Below are positions 13,471 to 59,719 of a stretch of DNA of 64,000 nt, piece after piece; within the stretch, counting starts at the first letter, position 1; every line of letters starts with the position of its first letter. The position numbers and the translations under genes were made by a program. This DNA is from Microbacterium cremeum (GTDB lineage: Bacteria; Actinomycetota; Actinomycetes; Actinomycetales; Microbacteriaceae), in NCBI RefSeq assembly GCF_015277855.1, contig NZ_CP063812.1:2666001-2730000 (forward strand). Direction: 5' to 3'. Under the pieces are notes generated by a model. It saw only the letters and a list, made by a program, of their open reading frames with translations, was not told the DNA's origin and did not search any database.

Positions 13471-13564
13471 GCCGAACTCCTGAGCTTCCCGATGGGGATA
13501 ACCACCCCCTCGCGGCGTTTCGGGGGCCCGCGGCCCGCGTGCGACGGTTTCTCAGGAGTTGGGC
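13471..13564. repeat. inverted half-site pair, AACTCCTGAG family (solitary copy A)
   Basis: Left arm GCCGAACTCCTGAG (13471-13484) and right arm CTCAGGAGTTGGGC (13551-13564) pair at 13 of 14 positions around a 66-base centre. The 17 bases CGGGCCGAACTCCTGAG at the left arm also occur, on the other strand, in the right arm of copy B (38852-38870), upstream of the first AbiEi-DUF559 gene. This copy sits alone between the divergent methyltransferase and maf genes, with no nuclease gene beside it. Confidence 0.8.
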
Positions 13565-38658: not shown

Positions 38659-38790
38659 GGCGGCTCCTTCGTTTCGGTGGTCCCCCCACCGTACGAACCG
38701 GCGTCCGTCGCGCGCGTCCCCCTCCGGAACCGACCTCGCACCCCCTACCCCGGTACGGGGTCGATCCGGCGGTCGACGCCGCCGTGCGTT

Positions 38791-38862
38791 ACTCCTGAGA
38801 AGCCGTTGCGTGGGTGACCTTTCTGGCGTGCAGGAGCGTGTTCAGTGAGGTTTCTCAGGAGT
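38791..38862. repeat. inverted half-site pair, AACTCCTGAG family (copy B), upstream of the first AbiEi-DUF559 gene
   Basis: Arms ACTCCTGAGAA (38791-38801) and TTCTCAGGAGT (38852-38862) pair perfectly around a 50-base centre. The right arm with its flank matches copy A over 17 bases. It ends 114 bases before the GTG of the nuclease gene. It sits in the 318-base interval 38659-38976, whose rest holds only short palindromes (CGGCGGTCGACGCCG) and the acyltransferase leader. Confidence 0.8.
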
Positions 38863-38976
38863 TCGGCCCGGCCGCCCAGGCAGCCGCTCCTCCCCACGCG
38901 GCCTCGCGGGCCAGTTCTCCCCAGATCATTCCCGGCGTCGGCGAGCGCCGCGGCCTTGTTCCGCAGAGTCGAAGCC

Positions 38977-39837
38977 GTGAACGAACCACGCGACCTCGTC
39001 AGCGACGGCATCGCCTCGATGCTGCTCAGCACCAGCGCTCTCGCCGCCGCCGGGATGTCCCGGCGGGAGCTCGCGCGCATGGTCGCCGCCGGCCGGCTCA
39101 TCCGCGTGCGGAAGGGGTGGCACGTGCAGGCGGGAACCCATCCGACTCTCGTCTCGGTGGCACGCCTCGGCGGCCGGCGGGACTGCGTCTCGCTCCTTCG
39201 TCATCTCGGAGTGTTCGTGCTGCAGAAGGAGCGCACCCACATGCAGCTGGACCCTCTCGCTAGCCGGGTGCCCCGGCGGCCTGATGGCGTAGTCCGCCAT
39301 TGGCGACCGACGTCGGTGCCTCGGGAAGCGCTCGTGACCGACGTGGTCGAGGCGCTCGTGCAGGCCGTCAGATGTCAGGAGCCACGCGCCGCGATAGCGA
39401 CGCTCGACAGCGCGTGGCATCTCGGCATCGTCGGCGAGGAAGACATCGCCGAGGTGTTCTCTCGGCTTCCACGGCGCTATCGGCGGCTGCGCGGACTTCT
39501 CGACAGGCGAAGCGAGTCCGGCCCTGAGACCCTCGTGCGCCTCATGCTGCGCGCACAGGGCTGCCGCGTCGAGGTGCAGCGGCCCATCGCGGGAGTCGGA
39601 CGAGTCGACTTCCTCGTGGATGGGTGGCTCATCATCGAGTGCGACAGCCAGGAGTTCCACTCGTCCTGGACGGCGCAGAAGCGCGATCGCCGGCGGGATC
39701 TCGAGGCCGCCCGCCTCGGCTACACCACCCTACGGCTCCTCGCCGAGGACATCATGTGGAACCGCGAACTCGTCCACTCGGCGCTCAAGGACGTCATCGC
39801 CCGCGGGCGCGGGCCCCACGGTGTACGCAACTCCTGA
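38977..39837 (+). CDS. AbiEi-type HTH plus DUF559 (Vsr-like endonuclease) protein, copy 1
   Basis: A 286-residue protein. The N-terminal part (about residues 18-50: LSTSALAAAGMSRRELARMVAAGRLIRVRKGWHV) is the winged-helix of the AbiEi antitoxin class. The C-terminal part is a DUF559/Vsr-type nuclease fold: GVGRVDFLVDGWLIIECDSQEFH (Asp211, Glu221) then KRDRRRDLEAARLGY. The set Asp...Glu-x-Asp with following Arg fits the PD-(D/E)xK family. GTG 38977 is chosen because CAGAGT lies seven bases upstream and the length matches copy 2. The stop codon lies inside repeat copy C. Target and role unknown. Confidence 0.82.
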   Translation: MNEPRDLVSDGIASMLLSTSALAAAGMSRRELARMVAAGRLIRVRKGWHVQAGTHPTLVSVARLGGRRDCVSLLRHLGVFVLQKERTHMQLDPLASRVPRRPDGVVRHWRPTSVPREALVTDVVEALVQAVRCQEPRAAIATLDSAWHLGIVGEEDIAEVFSRLPRRYRRLRGLLDRRSESGPETLVRLMLRAQGCRVEVQRPIAGVGRVDFLVDGWLIIECDSQEFHSSWTAQKRDRRRDLEAARLGYTTLRLLAEDIMWNRELVHSALKDVIARGRGPHGVRNS

Positions 39838-39905
39838 AGGAGCGGCTCCCTGGGCCGGGATTCGGCACGAGAACGACCGTGATGCGGCGATACTCAGGAG
39901 TTGCG
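39826..39905. repeat. inverted half-site pair, AACTCCTGAG family (copy C), covering the stop codon of copy 1
   Basis: Arms CGCAACTCCTGA (39826-39837) and TCAGGAGTTGCG (39894-39905) pair perfectly over 12 bases around a 56-base centre. The left arm supplies the last codons and the TGA stop of the nuclease gene. The outer flank of the right arm reads GTGCG on the paired strand, as in other copies. Confidence 0.85.
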
Positions 39906-39943: not shown

Positions 39944-41059
39944 CTAGCTGCCGAAGCCCTCGGAGATCAGCTCGATGAGCTCCTCGCGCTCCTCGACCGC
40001 GAGGAAGGCACCCGCGGCGGCGTTGAGCTGGAACACCTCGAGGTCGTCGAGGCCGTAGTCGAAGGTCTCGGCGAGGAGGGCGAGCTCGCGCGTGAGCGAC
40101 GTGCGGCTCATCGTGCGGTTGTCGACGTTCACGGTCACCGAGAACCCGAGCTGATACAGCAGGTCGAAGGGGTGGTCCTCGAGGGTCGTGCCCCAGCGCT
40201 CGATCGCGCCGGTCTGCAGGTTCGACGACGGCGACAGCTCGAGCGCGATCTCACGGTCGCGCACCCAGCGGGCGAGGTCGCCGAACTGGACGAGCACCTC
40301 CTCGCCGGCGCGTGAGACGACCTCGAGGTCCTCGGCGATTCGCACGCCGTGGCCGAGGCGCAGCGCTCGCCCGTCGATGAGCGCCGAGCGGATCGAGTCG
40401 AGCCCGGCCGCCTCGCCGGCATGCACCGTCGCGGGGAAGAACTCCGAGGCGAGGAAGTCGAACGCAGCACGGTGGTTCGAGGGCGGGAAGCCGTCCTCGG
40501 GTCCGGCGATGTCGAAGCCGACGGCGCCGCGTCCGCGCCAGTCGACCGCGAGCTTCGCGATCTCGAGCGACCGGTCGGTGTGCCGCATCGCGGTGATGAG
40601 CTGGCCGACGCGGATGTCGTGGCCCCGGCGCTCGGCGGCGTCCTCCCCTTCCTCGATGCCCTCCTGCACCGCGGCGACCGCCTCGTCGAGCGACAGACCG
40701 TGCGCCAGATGCTGCTCGGGCGCCCAGCGCACCTCGCCGTAGATGACGCCGTCGGCGGCGAGGTCCTCGACGAACTCGCGCGCGATGCGCGTGAGCCCTT
40801 CGCGGGTCTGCATCACGGCGGTGGTCAGATCGAACGTCTTCAGGTACTCGACCAGCGACCCCGAGTCACTCTTCTCGGCGAACCAGTCCGACAGCTCGTC
40901 GGGGTCGGTCTCGGGCACCTCGAGGTCGATCGCGTCGGCGAGCTCGATGATCGTCGCCGGACGCACACCGCCGTCGAGGTGGTCGTGCAGCGACACCTTC
41001 GGGAGTCCGCGGATCGACACGCCGTCGAGGATCGCGTCACCGTGCTGGTCGATGGGCAT
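39944..41059 (-). CDS. add: adenosine deaminase
   Basis: The enzyme turns adenosine and deoxyadenosine into inosine forms. The 371-residue protein has the metal ligands in KVSLHDHLDGG, the substrate region GDIAGPEDG-like GFDIAGPEDGFP, TVHAGEAAG (third His and catalytic Glu), LGHGVRI, SPSSNLQTGAI, and NVDNRTMSRTSL with the last metal Asp. ATG 41059 follows CAGGAGAACCC. It is the last gene of the nucleoside-use run, with a 59-base gap from deoA that contains a possible TAGGCT box (41113-41118). Confidence 0.96.
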   Translation of the reverse strand: MPIDQHGDAILDGVSIRGLPKVSLHDHLDGGVRPATIIELADAIDLEVPETDPDELSDWFAEKSDSGSLVEYLKTFDLTTAVMQTREGLTRIAREFVEDLAADGVIYGEVRWAPEQHLAHGLSLDEAVAAVQEGIEEGEDAAERRGHDIRVGQLITAMRHTDRSLEIAKLAVDWRGRGAVGFDIAGPEDGFPPSNHRAAFDFLASEFFPATVHAGEAAGLDSIRSALIDGRALRLGHGVRIAEDLEVVSRAGEEVLVQFGDLARWVRDREIALELSPSSNLQTGAIERWGTTLEDHPFDLLYQLGFSVTVNVDNRTMSRTSLTRELALLAETFDYGLDDLEVFQLNAAAGAFLAVEEREELIELISEGFGS

Positions 41060-58342: not shown

Positions 58343-58430
58343 CAACTCCGCCTCGAGAGGAAGGTGCCCGGGGTCGACCACCGAAAGGCAACCGGGCACG
58401 ATGACCTGACATCGGGTTCAGGCGGAGTTG
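58343..58430. repeat. inverted half-site pair, CAACTCCGCCTG family (copy D1)
   Basis: Arms CAACTCCGCCT (58343-58353) and AGGCGGAGTTG (58420-58430) pair perfectly. The 66-base centre holds a nested perfect 8-bp stem, GTGCCCGG (58364-58371) and CCGGGCAC (58392-58399). The left flank is GTGTGCCA. It lies in the gene-free interval 58291-58668, which contains only this copy and D2. Confidence 0.8.
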
Positions 58431-58537: not shown

Positions 58538-58624
58538 CAACTCCGCCTGGGCTCCACCGCGCACCCGCGACTGCCCGGAACCACCGCCCGCCCGCCGACC
58601 TGTTCCCCGATTCAGGTGGAGTTG
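58538..58624. repeat. inverted half-site pair, CAACTCCGCCTG family (copy D2), downstream of copy 2
   Basis: Arms CAACTCCGCCTG (58538-58549) and CAGGTGGAGTTG (58613-58624) pair at 11 of 12 around a 63-base centre. It ends 44 bases past the stop codon of the second AbiEi-DUF559 gene. Confidence 0.78.
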
Positions 58625-58668: not shown

Positions 58669-59520
58669 TCAGCGCGTGCGCGTCTCGATGACGCCGCGGA
58701 GAGCCGCCTGCACCTGCTCAGGCCGATAGAGGATGTCCTCGGCGGTGAGTCGGAGCACGACGTACCCACGCTGCGCCAGCGCGAGGTCGCGTCGGTAGTC
58801 CTTGAGCTGCTGGCCCCAGCTCGCGTGGAACTCCTTGCTGTCGCACTCGATCACGAGCCACCCGTCCACGACGAGGTCGACGCGCCCGATCCCGGCGAAC
58901 CGCACCTGCGGAACGACCCGACAACCGAGCGCACGTACCCAGAGTCGGACGATGGTCTCGGGTCCGGACTGTGCGCGCCTGTCCACGAGCCGCTCGAGGA
59001 CGGCGAAACGGCGCGGCAGCGCCTCGAACAGCCGACGGAGGTCCTGCGCGCGGATCAGGTTCTTGTTGAGCGCGCTGTCGATCGTCGCCACCGCGAACCG
59101 TGGTGGCTGGCAGAGCACGGCGTGCGCGAGCGCGTCCACTATGGGGACGACCGCCGCCGCCATCTCGACGTCGCCGAGCAGCGGCATCCAGTGCAGCACT
59201 TCCCTGCGCGTGCCAATCGGCTGGAGTGGACCGCCCTCGGCCTCGGCAGAGCGCAGCCTGCTCGCTCCGCGCACGACGTGCACGTGCAGCCGGGTGTTCT
59301 CGAACACGAACACCCCGAGCAGCTGCAGCAAAGACAGGCAGGTCAGCCGGCCGCCGACGCGAACCGCCTGGCGCACGTCATCCGTCGCCTGACCCGACAT
59401 GTAGCGGTCGCGACGGACCCGCACGAGCCTGCCCATCGCGAGCGCGTGACGGATGCCGCGCCGACTCATCCCGGTTGCGATGAGGTGAGCGCGGGTCACC
59501 GCCTGGTGTTCGTGGAGCAC
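58669..59520 (-). CDS. AbiEi-type HTH plus DUF559 (Vsr-like endonuclease) protein, copy 2
   Basis: A 283-residue paralogue of the gene at 38977-39837. The N-terminus has the winged-helix part TRAHLIATGMSRRGIRHALAMGRLVRVRRDRYMSG; the C-terminus has GIGRVDLVVDGWLVIECDSKEFH (Asp215, Glu225), then KDYRRDLALAQRGYVVLRLTAEDI. GTG 59520 is chosen because it gives a length nearly equal to copy 1 and lies after repeat D3; CACCAT lies six bases upstream. The frame stays open to 59724 but that part overlaps the repeat. Target and role unknown. Confidence 0.8.
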   Translation of the reverse strand: MLHEHQAVTRAHLIATGMSRRGIRHALAMGRLVRVRRDRYMSGQATDDVRQAVRVGGRLTCLSLLQLLGVFVFENTRLHVHVVRGASRLRSAEAEGGPLQPIGTRREVLHWMPLLGDVEMAAAVVPIVDALAHAVLCQPPRFAVATIDSALNKNLIRAQDLRRLFEALPRRFAVLERLVDRRAQSGPETIVRLWVRALGCRVVPQVRFAGIGRVDLVVDGWLVIECDSKEFHASWGQQLKDYRRDLALAQRGYVVLRLTAEDILYRPEQVQAALRGVIETRTR

Positions 59521-59629: not shown

Positions 59630-59719
59630 CCAGCTCCGCCTGGACTGAAGTGCGGACGCGGGCAGTTCGCGGATCTTCGCGGCTCACCGCGTGCCTCTCG
59701 CAAAGCCAGGCGGAGTTGG
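59630..59719. repeat. inverted half-site pair, CAACTCCGCCTG family (copy D3), upstream of copy 2
   Basis: Arms CCAGCTCCGCCTGG (59630-59643) and CCAGGCGGAGTTGG (59706-59719) pair at 13 of 14 around a 62-base centre. It starts 110 bases before the GTG of copy 2, nearly the spacing of copy B from copy 1 (114 bases). The left flank is GTGTGCG, the right reads GTGCC on the paired strand. Confidence 0.8.

Follow-up and report, generated by a model that had tools for sequence, protein, structure and literature searches.

An AbiEi-linked nuclease gene bracketed by inverted half-site pairs in Microbacterium cremeum and its relatives

Introduction

Some chromosomal genes are accompanied by sequences that their own products recognize. 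In the REPtron, as presented in the consulted part of PMC8266576, a chromosomal gene for a TnpA-REP transposase, or repetitive extragenic palindromic (REP)-associated tyrosine transposase (RAYT), is bordered by cognate repeats, and further copies of these are dispersed. AbiEi and Rv2827c each recognize 23-bp inverted repeats within the promoter of their own gene (PMC7319586, in the section consulted), the homing endonuclease I-Bth0305I is described as dimerizing on a nearly 60-bp target (in a passage of the review PMC3943268), and VsrA of Caulobacter is a DUF559 protein with the Vsr nuclease fold (PMC12907096, in the portion consulted). Here, we analyzed a stretch of 64,000 nucleotides of Microbacterium cremeum (assembly GCF_015277855.1, contig NZ_CP063812.1, positions 2,666,001 to 2,730,000 of the forward strand; "the window"), in which a gene for an AbiEi-linked nuclease of the MTES_1575 family lies between two inverted pairs of half-sites. 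An original prediction, made from the letters of this DNA, held that the paired arms might be recognition sites of the nuclease or that the nuclease might play the role of a RAYT. No function is known to us for those small proteins of the MTES_1575 family that are linked to an AbiEi part, and a search of the open-access literature, with subscription papers outside its reach, returned no publication on this association of nuclease and paired sites.

Results

The predicted layout is present in the window: an inverted pair lies on either side of the nuclease gene (Table 1), the upstream copy ends 114 bases ahead of the start codon, and the left arm of the downstream copy, AACTCCTGA, encodes Asn-Ser-stop of the gene. 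The cores lie at 38791-38798 and 38855-38862 upstream, where the leftmost base of the element is T and not A, and at 39830-39837 and 39894-39901 downstream. Half-sites are approximately 20 bp long. The centers of the two copies differ in sequence, as had been claimed, and are unrelated; the center lengths of 50 and 56 bases given earlier need correction, since 56 bases separate the 8-base cores in both copies. The window contains 7 occurrences of the 8-mer ACTCCTGA, where 1.04 would be expected and where 0 of 100 shuffles reach 7, and the pattern ACTCCTGA-N45-75-TCAGGAGT has eight matches in the 3.98-Mb genome (reversed-pattern control, 0), falling into two size classes that measure 71-72 and 83-84 bp with both cores counted in. 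Three of these eight pairs are in the window, namely, the bracket and one lone copy. Across 43 elements, collected by their exact 8-base cores such that eight core positions are fixed by the search, the half-site extends to approximately CGKGCSNAACTCCTGAGWWWC. Long-class elements, including the window copy at 13476-13559, have a central dyad of approximately CGRRATYYCG (n = 9, length 84), which was not seen in the short class (n = 30, length 72) and is perhaps a further contact.

To score the bracket, we counted agreement of the four arms over 12 columns with equal spacing, and a score of at least 9 was the standard pass, a threshold chosen after a control had been inspected. This score replaced a scan for exact 8-letter words, in which a single mismatch concealed many pairs. 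The genus set combined 81 genes (small frames hand-picked from the top of the genus matches listed), five of the six matches from the M. cremeum genome (locus L068 omitted), and the best 80 of 178 loci, nearly all of which are Microbacterium, with a few assigned to Microbacteriaceae or to an Actinomycetes bacterium. Long fusions (L086-L093) were excluded, and removal of duplicates and of frames shorter than 200 amino acids reduced the 166 genes to 156. Both sides were bracketed in 113 of the 156 (72%), compared to 258 of 6,000 mismatched flanks (4.3%), a control that errs high because it contains related genes with common arms, and to 1 of 167 control windows that had been moved away from the gene (0.6%). 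At a score of at least 10, the proportion was 78/156 versus 1.8% of mismatched flanks, and at a score of at least 8, it was 129/156 versus 13%. Among 58 genes hand-picked from other genera of the family, with long frames excluded, 34 were bracketed (control, 0.5% of 3,000). After thinning at 60% identity, the bracket persisted in 51 of 74 genus-set genes and 33 of 56 genes from other genera. Elsewhere in the class, 6 of 20 hand-picked genes (small frames, one per genome) passed, and 10 of 20 did so when shorter and longer spacings were allowed (control, 0 of 2,000). The placement of the gene between its own paired sites is therefore real and general. Matches to the MTES_1575 family, long helicase-type fusions included, were found in 118 of 119 genus genomes and 112 of 120 family genomes.

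Six family matches occur in the M. cremeum genome. The second unit in the window has its own arms, CTCCGCCT with AGGCGGAG or AGGTGGAG (Table 1), and its protein gave no AbiEi row at an E value of 0.01. Pairs with CAGGACATCTG arms bracket a third gene (L070), a fourth (L069) has CGGATCCGGAAA pairs on both sides, the fifth (L067) has a bracket score of 11/12, and no shared pair was detected around the sixth match, the 1,538-amino-acid frame L068. Many genus genomes hold a family gene at a second conserved chromosomal place approximately 17-20 kb from the adenosine deaminase gene add, and the second window unit (58669-59520) occupies this place.

Core centers in the ACTCCTGA family are 64 or 76 bp apart, and upstream and downstream spacings agree to within 2 bp in 82 of 88 genes with an unconstrained score of at least 10 (drawn from the 166, duplicates kept). 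In four of the remaining genes, the two spacings differ by 11, 11, 12, and 22 bp, which correspond to helical turns, and in two, they differ by 17 and 18 bp, the step of the doubled arms of what we call group B. In genes of that group (L163, L155, L152, L112, L094, and L148), half-sites are doubled with a step of 18-19 bp. Spacing that is constant or shifts by helical turns points to a protein bound on duplex DNA.

Arm sequences differ among gene lineages, and they do so in step with the protein: protein identity and arm similarity were correlated over 88 genes (Mantel r = 0.517), a value reached in 0 of 1,000 permutations. This co-variation strongly supports the assignment of the arms to the encoded protein. 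It can be followed at a single chromosomal site, beside add, where 44 family loci are found, of which 43 are convergent with add (L205 is the exception) and 40 score at least 9. Arms at this site read AACTCC or ACTCC followed by TGA, TCA, TCCA, TTCGA, AC, or GGA, or contain GCTCCGGA; thus, a unit can hold its place while arms and protein change jointly. At least 4 of 20 distinct add sites that lack the gene (L276, L265, L264, and L263) also hold inverted pairs, which by eye resemble the CGAGAACAGG or CACAACGTCGG arms of other units.

Within the protein, the co-variation is spread out, with no single region enriched. Residue 94, in a loop, tracks the two bases after CTCC, with Leu accompanying TG in 7 of 7 genes, His accompanying GG in 8 of 8, and Gly mixed, in a tally of 50 genes that is not corrected for descent. 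In pairs matched for identity, this residue came 2nd among 241 columns overall; in the separate bins, it was 1st among 221, 13th among 225, and 14th among 118. Its role as a specificity position is a lead only.

The window protein is modeled as an AbiEi-type DNA-binding part fused to a Vsr/EDxHD-type nuclease, the two folds matched by its predicted structure, in keeping with the AbiEi-DUF559 assignment and the Vsr-like, DNA-binding nuclease first proposed. Pfam placed it in MTES_1575 at 38.0 bits, marginally below the cutoff of 38.2, and also matched DUF559 and AbiEi_4 (28.8 bits; cutoff, 25), and PADLOC AbiEi models match residues 7-62. Eight residues of the catalytic type (E184, D211, E221, D223, H228, D237, R240, and D241) show no variation among the 58 close relatives aligned, and five of these, E184, D211, D223, H228, and D241, are candidate counterparts of the E-D-x-H-D catalytic residues of EDxHD homing endonucleases (structure 3r3p). 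No HUH-type domain appeared among the Pfam and structure matches. The gene is flanked by genes for an acyltransferase and adenosine deaminase, neither of which is an AbiEii nucleotidyltransferase toxin gene.

The number of dispersed pairs mostly follows the presence of the cognate gene, and orphans exist. Matches to ACTCCTGA pairs were found in 8 of 98 genomes (labeled with G numbers); the single match in G011 is a different repeat, and one of four in G007 is unlike the others. Where a gene bracketed by ACTCCTGA arms is present, there are 8 (G000), 10 (G019), 10 (G055), and 6 pairs (G044, in which two contigs apparently share the gene between them, and one pair lies on either outer flank). No cognate gene was found beside the pairs of G009 (five, all examined), G016 (six, five examined), or G007 (three, all examined); the gene beside add carries GCGCTCCGGA arms in G007 and G016, and G009 has none there. 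Over 20 genomes, CTCCGCCT pairs numbered five in G000 and six in G152, both with the cognate gene, and one each in G001 and G009, and the remaining 16 genomes had no such pair (3 matches to the reversed pattern). Likewise over 20 genomes, GCGCTCCGGA pairs numbered four in G007 and three in G016, both with the cognate gene, and one in G044, and the remaining 17 had no such pair (0 matches to the reversed pattern). The expectation that copy number would follow the gene was checked for the cognate gene, given that 118 of 119 genus genomes have some match to the family and a comparison with genomes free of any such gene was not feasible. Copy number mostly follows the cognate gene; the exceptions are the three genomes with 3, 5, and 6 pairs, in which no such gene was found beside the pairs examined. 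The cognate gene of G055 (L047:2486-3302) matches in two frames and looks frameshifted, with its bracket intact.

The whole unit at the add site is present in G055 (L047) and absent in G009 (L287), with no clear target duplication, and these two genomes have elements with like centers in common. Within one genome, by comparison, centers are unrelated, and recent copying that would yield like centers was rejected, given that the sole exception among 135 within-genome pairs is an adjacent pair in L048. The ACTCCTGA elements of that pair (L048:5762-5995) lie 162 bp apart, and both their centers (0.86) and their flanks are alike, as in a tandem duplication. A comparison of one dispersed element (L084 in G055) yielded no clean empty site with target duplication: the corresponding position holds 9.3 kb in G009, and segments of approximately 7 kb and 23 kb take its place in G016 and G007, respectively, an insertion-deletion junction. 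Searches with the window protein or its alignment gave one partial match in 50,697 phage records (E value, 1e-5), two matches in 72,556 plasmid records (E value, 1e-8; both Tsukamurella), and seven pattern matches in viral contigs, none of them confirmed; carriage as phage or plasmid cargo was rejected because these collections hold almost no matches. Given the unrelated centers, the insertion-deletion junction, and the near absence from mobile collections, active spread is not demonstrated.

We placed 41 ACTCCTGA elements relative to genes predicted with a crude caller: 25 touch no predicted gene, 5 share 8 bases with one, and 11 have a larger overlap. Neighboring genes were codirectional at 20 elements, convergent at 12, and divergent at 9 (background, 95, 41, and 30), and no clear orientation bias was seen. 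At inner positions, the left and right arms of one copy resemble each other no more than do arms taken from different copies (p = 0.59 to 0.90), and six outer positions agree better within a copy (0.678 versus 0.589; 0 of 2,000 permutations), which may reflect species-specific flanks.

Table 1. Positions of the nuclease units and related features in the window
Feature	Position	Strand	Remark
Nuclease gene	38977..39837	+	GTG start, 286 amino acids; Pfam MTES_1575 / DUF559
AbiEi antitoxin-matching part (PDB 6y8q)	39022..39504 (codons 16-176)	+	Structure match
Nuclease domain	39514..39813 (codons 180-279)	+	Structure match and aligned relatives
Upstream element, inverted half-site pair	38790..38863		74 bp; core ACTCCTGA / TCAGGAGT
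Downstream element, inverted half-site pair	39829..39902		74 bp; left arm gives the stop codon of the gene
Lone element, same family	13475..13560		Long class (86 bp); flanked by divergent genes
Second unit, nuclease gene	58669..59520	-	46% identical paralogue; GTG start picked by alignment
Second unit, outer downstream element	58346..58427		Core CTCCGCCT / AGGCGGAG
Second unit, inner downstream element	58541..58621		Core CTCCGCCT / AGGTGGAG
Second unit, upstream element	59634..59715		Core CTCCGCCT / AGGCGGAG
Adenosine deaminase gene (add)	39944..41059	-	Convergent neighbor; marks the conserved site of the unit

Discussion

We propose, with a probability of about 0.6, that the unit is a nuclease gene with a copy of its own binding site on either side, which a dimer of the encoded protein would bind and cut. 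Each site would consist of two inverted half-sites of approximately 20 bp at a fixed helical distance, bound as duplex DNA, with each AbiEi-type part reading one half-site and the two Vsr/EDxHD nuclease domains meeting above the unread center to cut or nick it there. Such a dimer would explain why arms are conserved, centers are free, spacing is fixed, and catalytic-type residues are invariant. The upstream copy probably doubles as an operator for self-control, as in AbiE systems, and repair of cuts between bracketing and lone copies might preserve the fit of bracket to enzyme and help the unit to spread. The comparisons of sequence lead us to regard the arms as duplex half-sites that the enzyme encoded between them would recognize; the suggestion that they are recognition half-sites gains from the recurrence of the bracket with other arms, from arms that track the protein, and from copies that mostly follow their cognate gene. 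Weighing against this proposal are the genes that fail in the standard setting (43 of 156, 24 of 58, and 14 of 20), some of which may have degraded arms, while others may be exceptions to the rule.

An artifact of chance or composition in G+C-rich DNA, in which inverted words are common and mismatched flanks reach a score of 8 in 13% of cases, is next to impossible in our judgment, with no reversed pairs in the M. cremeum genome and with 72% of genes passing at a score of 9 against 4.3% and 0.6% in the two controls. We also put aside an RNA or DNA hairpin, such as a terminator or mRNA end signal, that flanks the gene by coincidence. The arms are complementary, 5 of the 41 placed elements have 8 bases in common with the end of a predicted gene, and the outer positions match within a copy; however, inner positions lack co-variation, spacing is constant with loops of approximately 50 bases, arms are specific to gene lineages, and Rfam returned a single chance-level row, elsewhere in the window, all of which makes a hairpin highly improbable.

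Pure transcription control would make the protein an AbiEi-type regulator with an upstream operator and a downstream looping operator, lone pairs marking controlled genes and the nuclease fold only aiding binding. We consider this unlikely, as eight catalytic-type residues are invariant in all 58 close relatives and the 41 placed elements lack promoter bias, to the extent that crude gene calls reveal it. Doubtful, and to a greater degree, is a RAYT-like transposition in which the nuclease copies whole elements and the unit is a two-ended transposon. The layout described in the consulted part of PMC8266576 (a chromosomal gene bordered by cognate repeats, with dispersed copies) speaks for it, as do the presence and absence of the unit at the add site in G055 and G009, which share like-centered elements, and the extra copies that lie adjacent in L047, L048, L049, and L129. 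Set against this are the unrelated centers of all copies but the adjacent L048 pair, the single flank comparison, in which long segments and not a clean empty site replace the element, the lack of an HUH-type domain among Pfam and structure matches, and the three genomes that keep pairs with no cognate gene found. Of the RAYT role first proposed, the arrangement of a gene between cognate repeats is thus borne out and the copying of repeats is not.

The bracket hands most examined members of the family a predicted target that is legible from their own flanks, which opens binding, cutting, specificity change, and orthogonality to direct tests and makes the family a natural collection of long-site nucleases whose targets can be read. 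It also prompts one to ask how a protein and its four half-sites, each a separate sequence, come to change jointly. More tentatively, at somewhat less than even odds, this would be a new class of genetic unit of Actinobacteria in which a site-specific nuclease lives between paired half-sites of its own and depends on them, a genome hosts several units that are mutually specific, and specificity changes jointly in the protein and its four half-sites. On this reading, the principle of the REPtron would have been invented a second time, independently, and be kept or spread by self-site cutting.

With AbiE type IV toxin-antitoxin systems and Rv2827c, the unit has in common the AbiEi-type DNA-binding part and inverted repeats of approximately 20 bp upstream; unlike AbiE, it has no adjoining toxin gene, a nuclease domain is added, and sites lie also downstream and dispersed, with core centers 64-76 bp apart, in contrast to repeat gaps of 3 or 13 bp. 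The EDxHD homing endonuclease I-Bth0305I has the same catalytic-domain fold as the window protein, yet its target is split by its gene, whereas here the sites are intact on both sides of a free-standing chromosomal gene whose product has an AbiEi-type reader. The Vsr mismatch nuclease is alike in nuclease fold, and long paired sites are found only here. The REPtron has the same layout, with an enzyme gene between cognate inverted sequences and copies dispersed between genes; its enzyme is an HUH (Y1) transposase and its REP a GTAG-headed stem-loop, whereas here the enzyme is of the AbiEi plus Vsr/EDxHD type, the consensus of the 43 elements has no GTAG head, and the elements are duplex half-site pairs with fixed spacing and free centers, in several different units per genome and few copies (3-10 for the ACTCCTGA family). 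What we describe appears to be a novel type of unit composed of gene and sites, which can be compared with REP/RAYT units and is unrelated to them.
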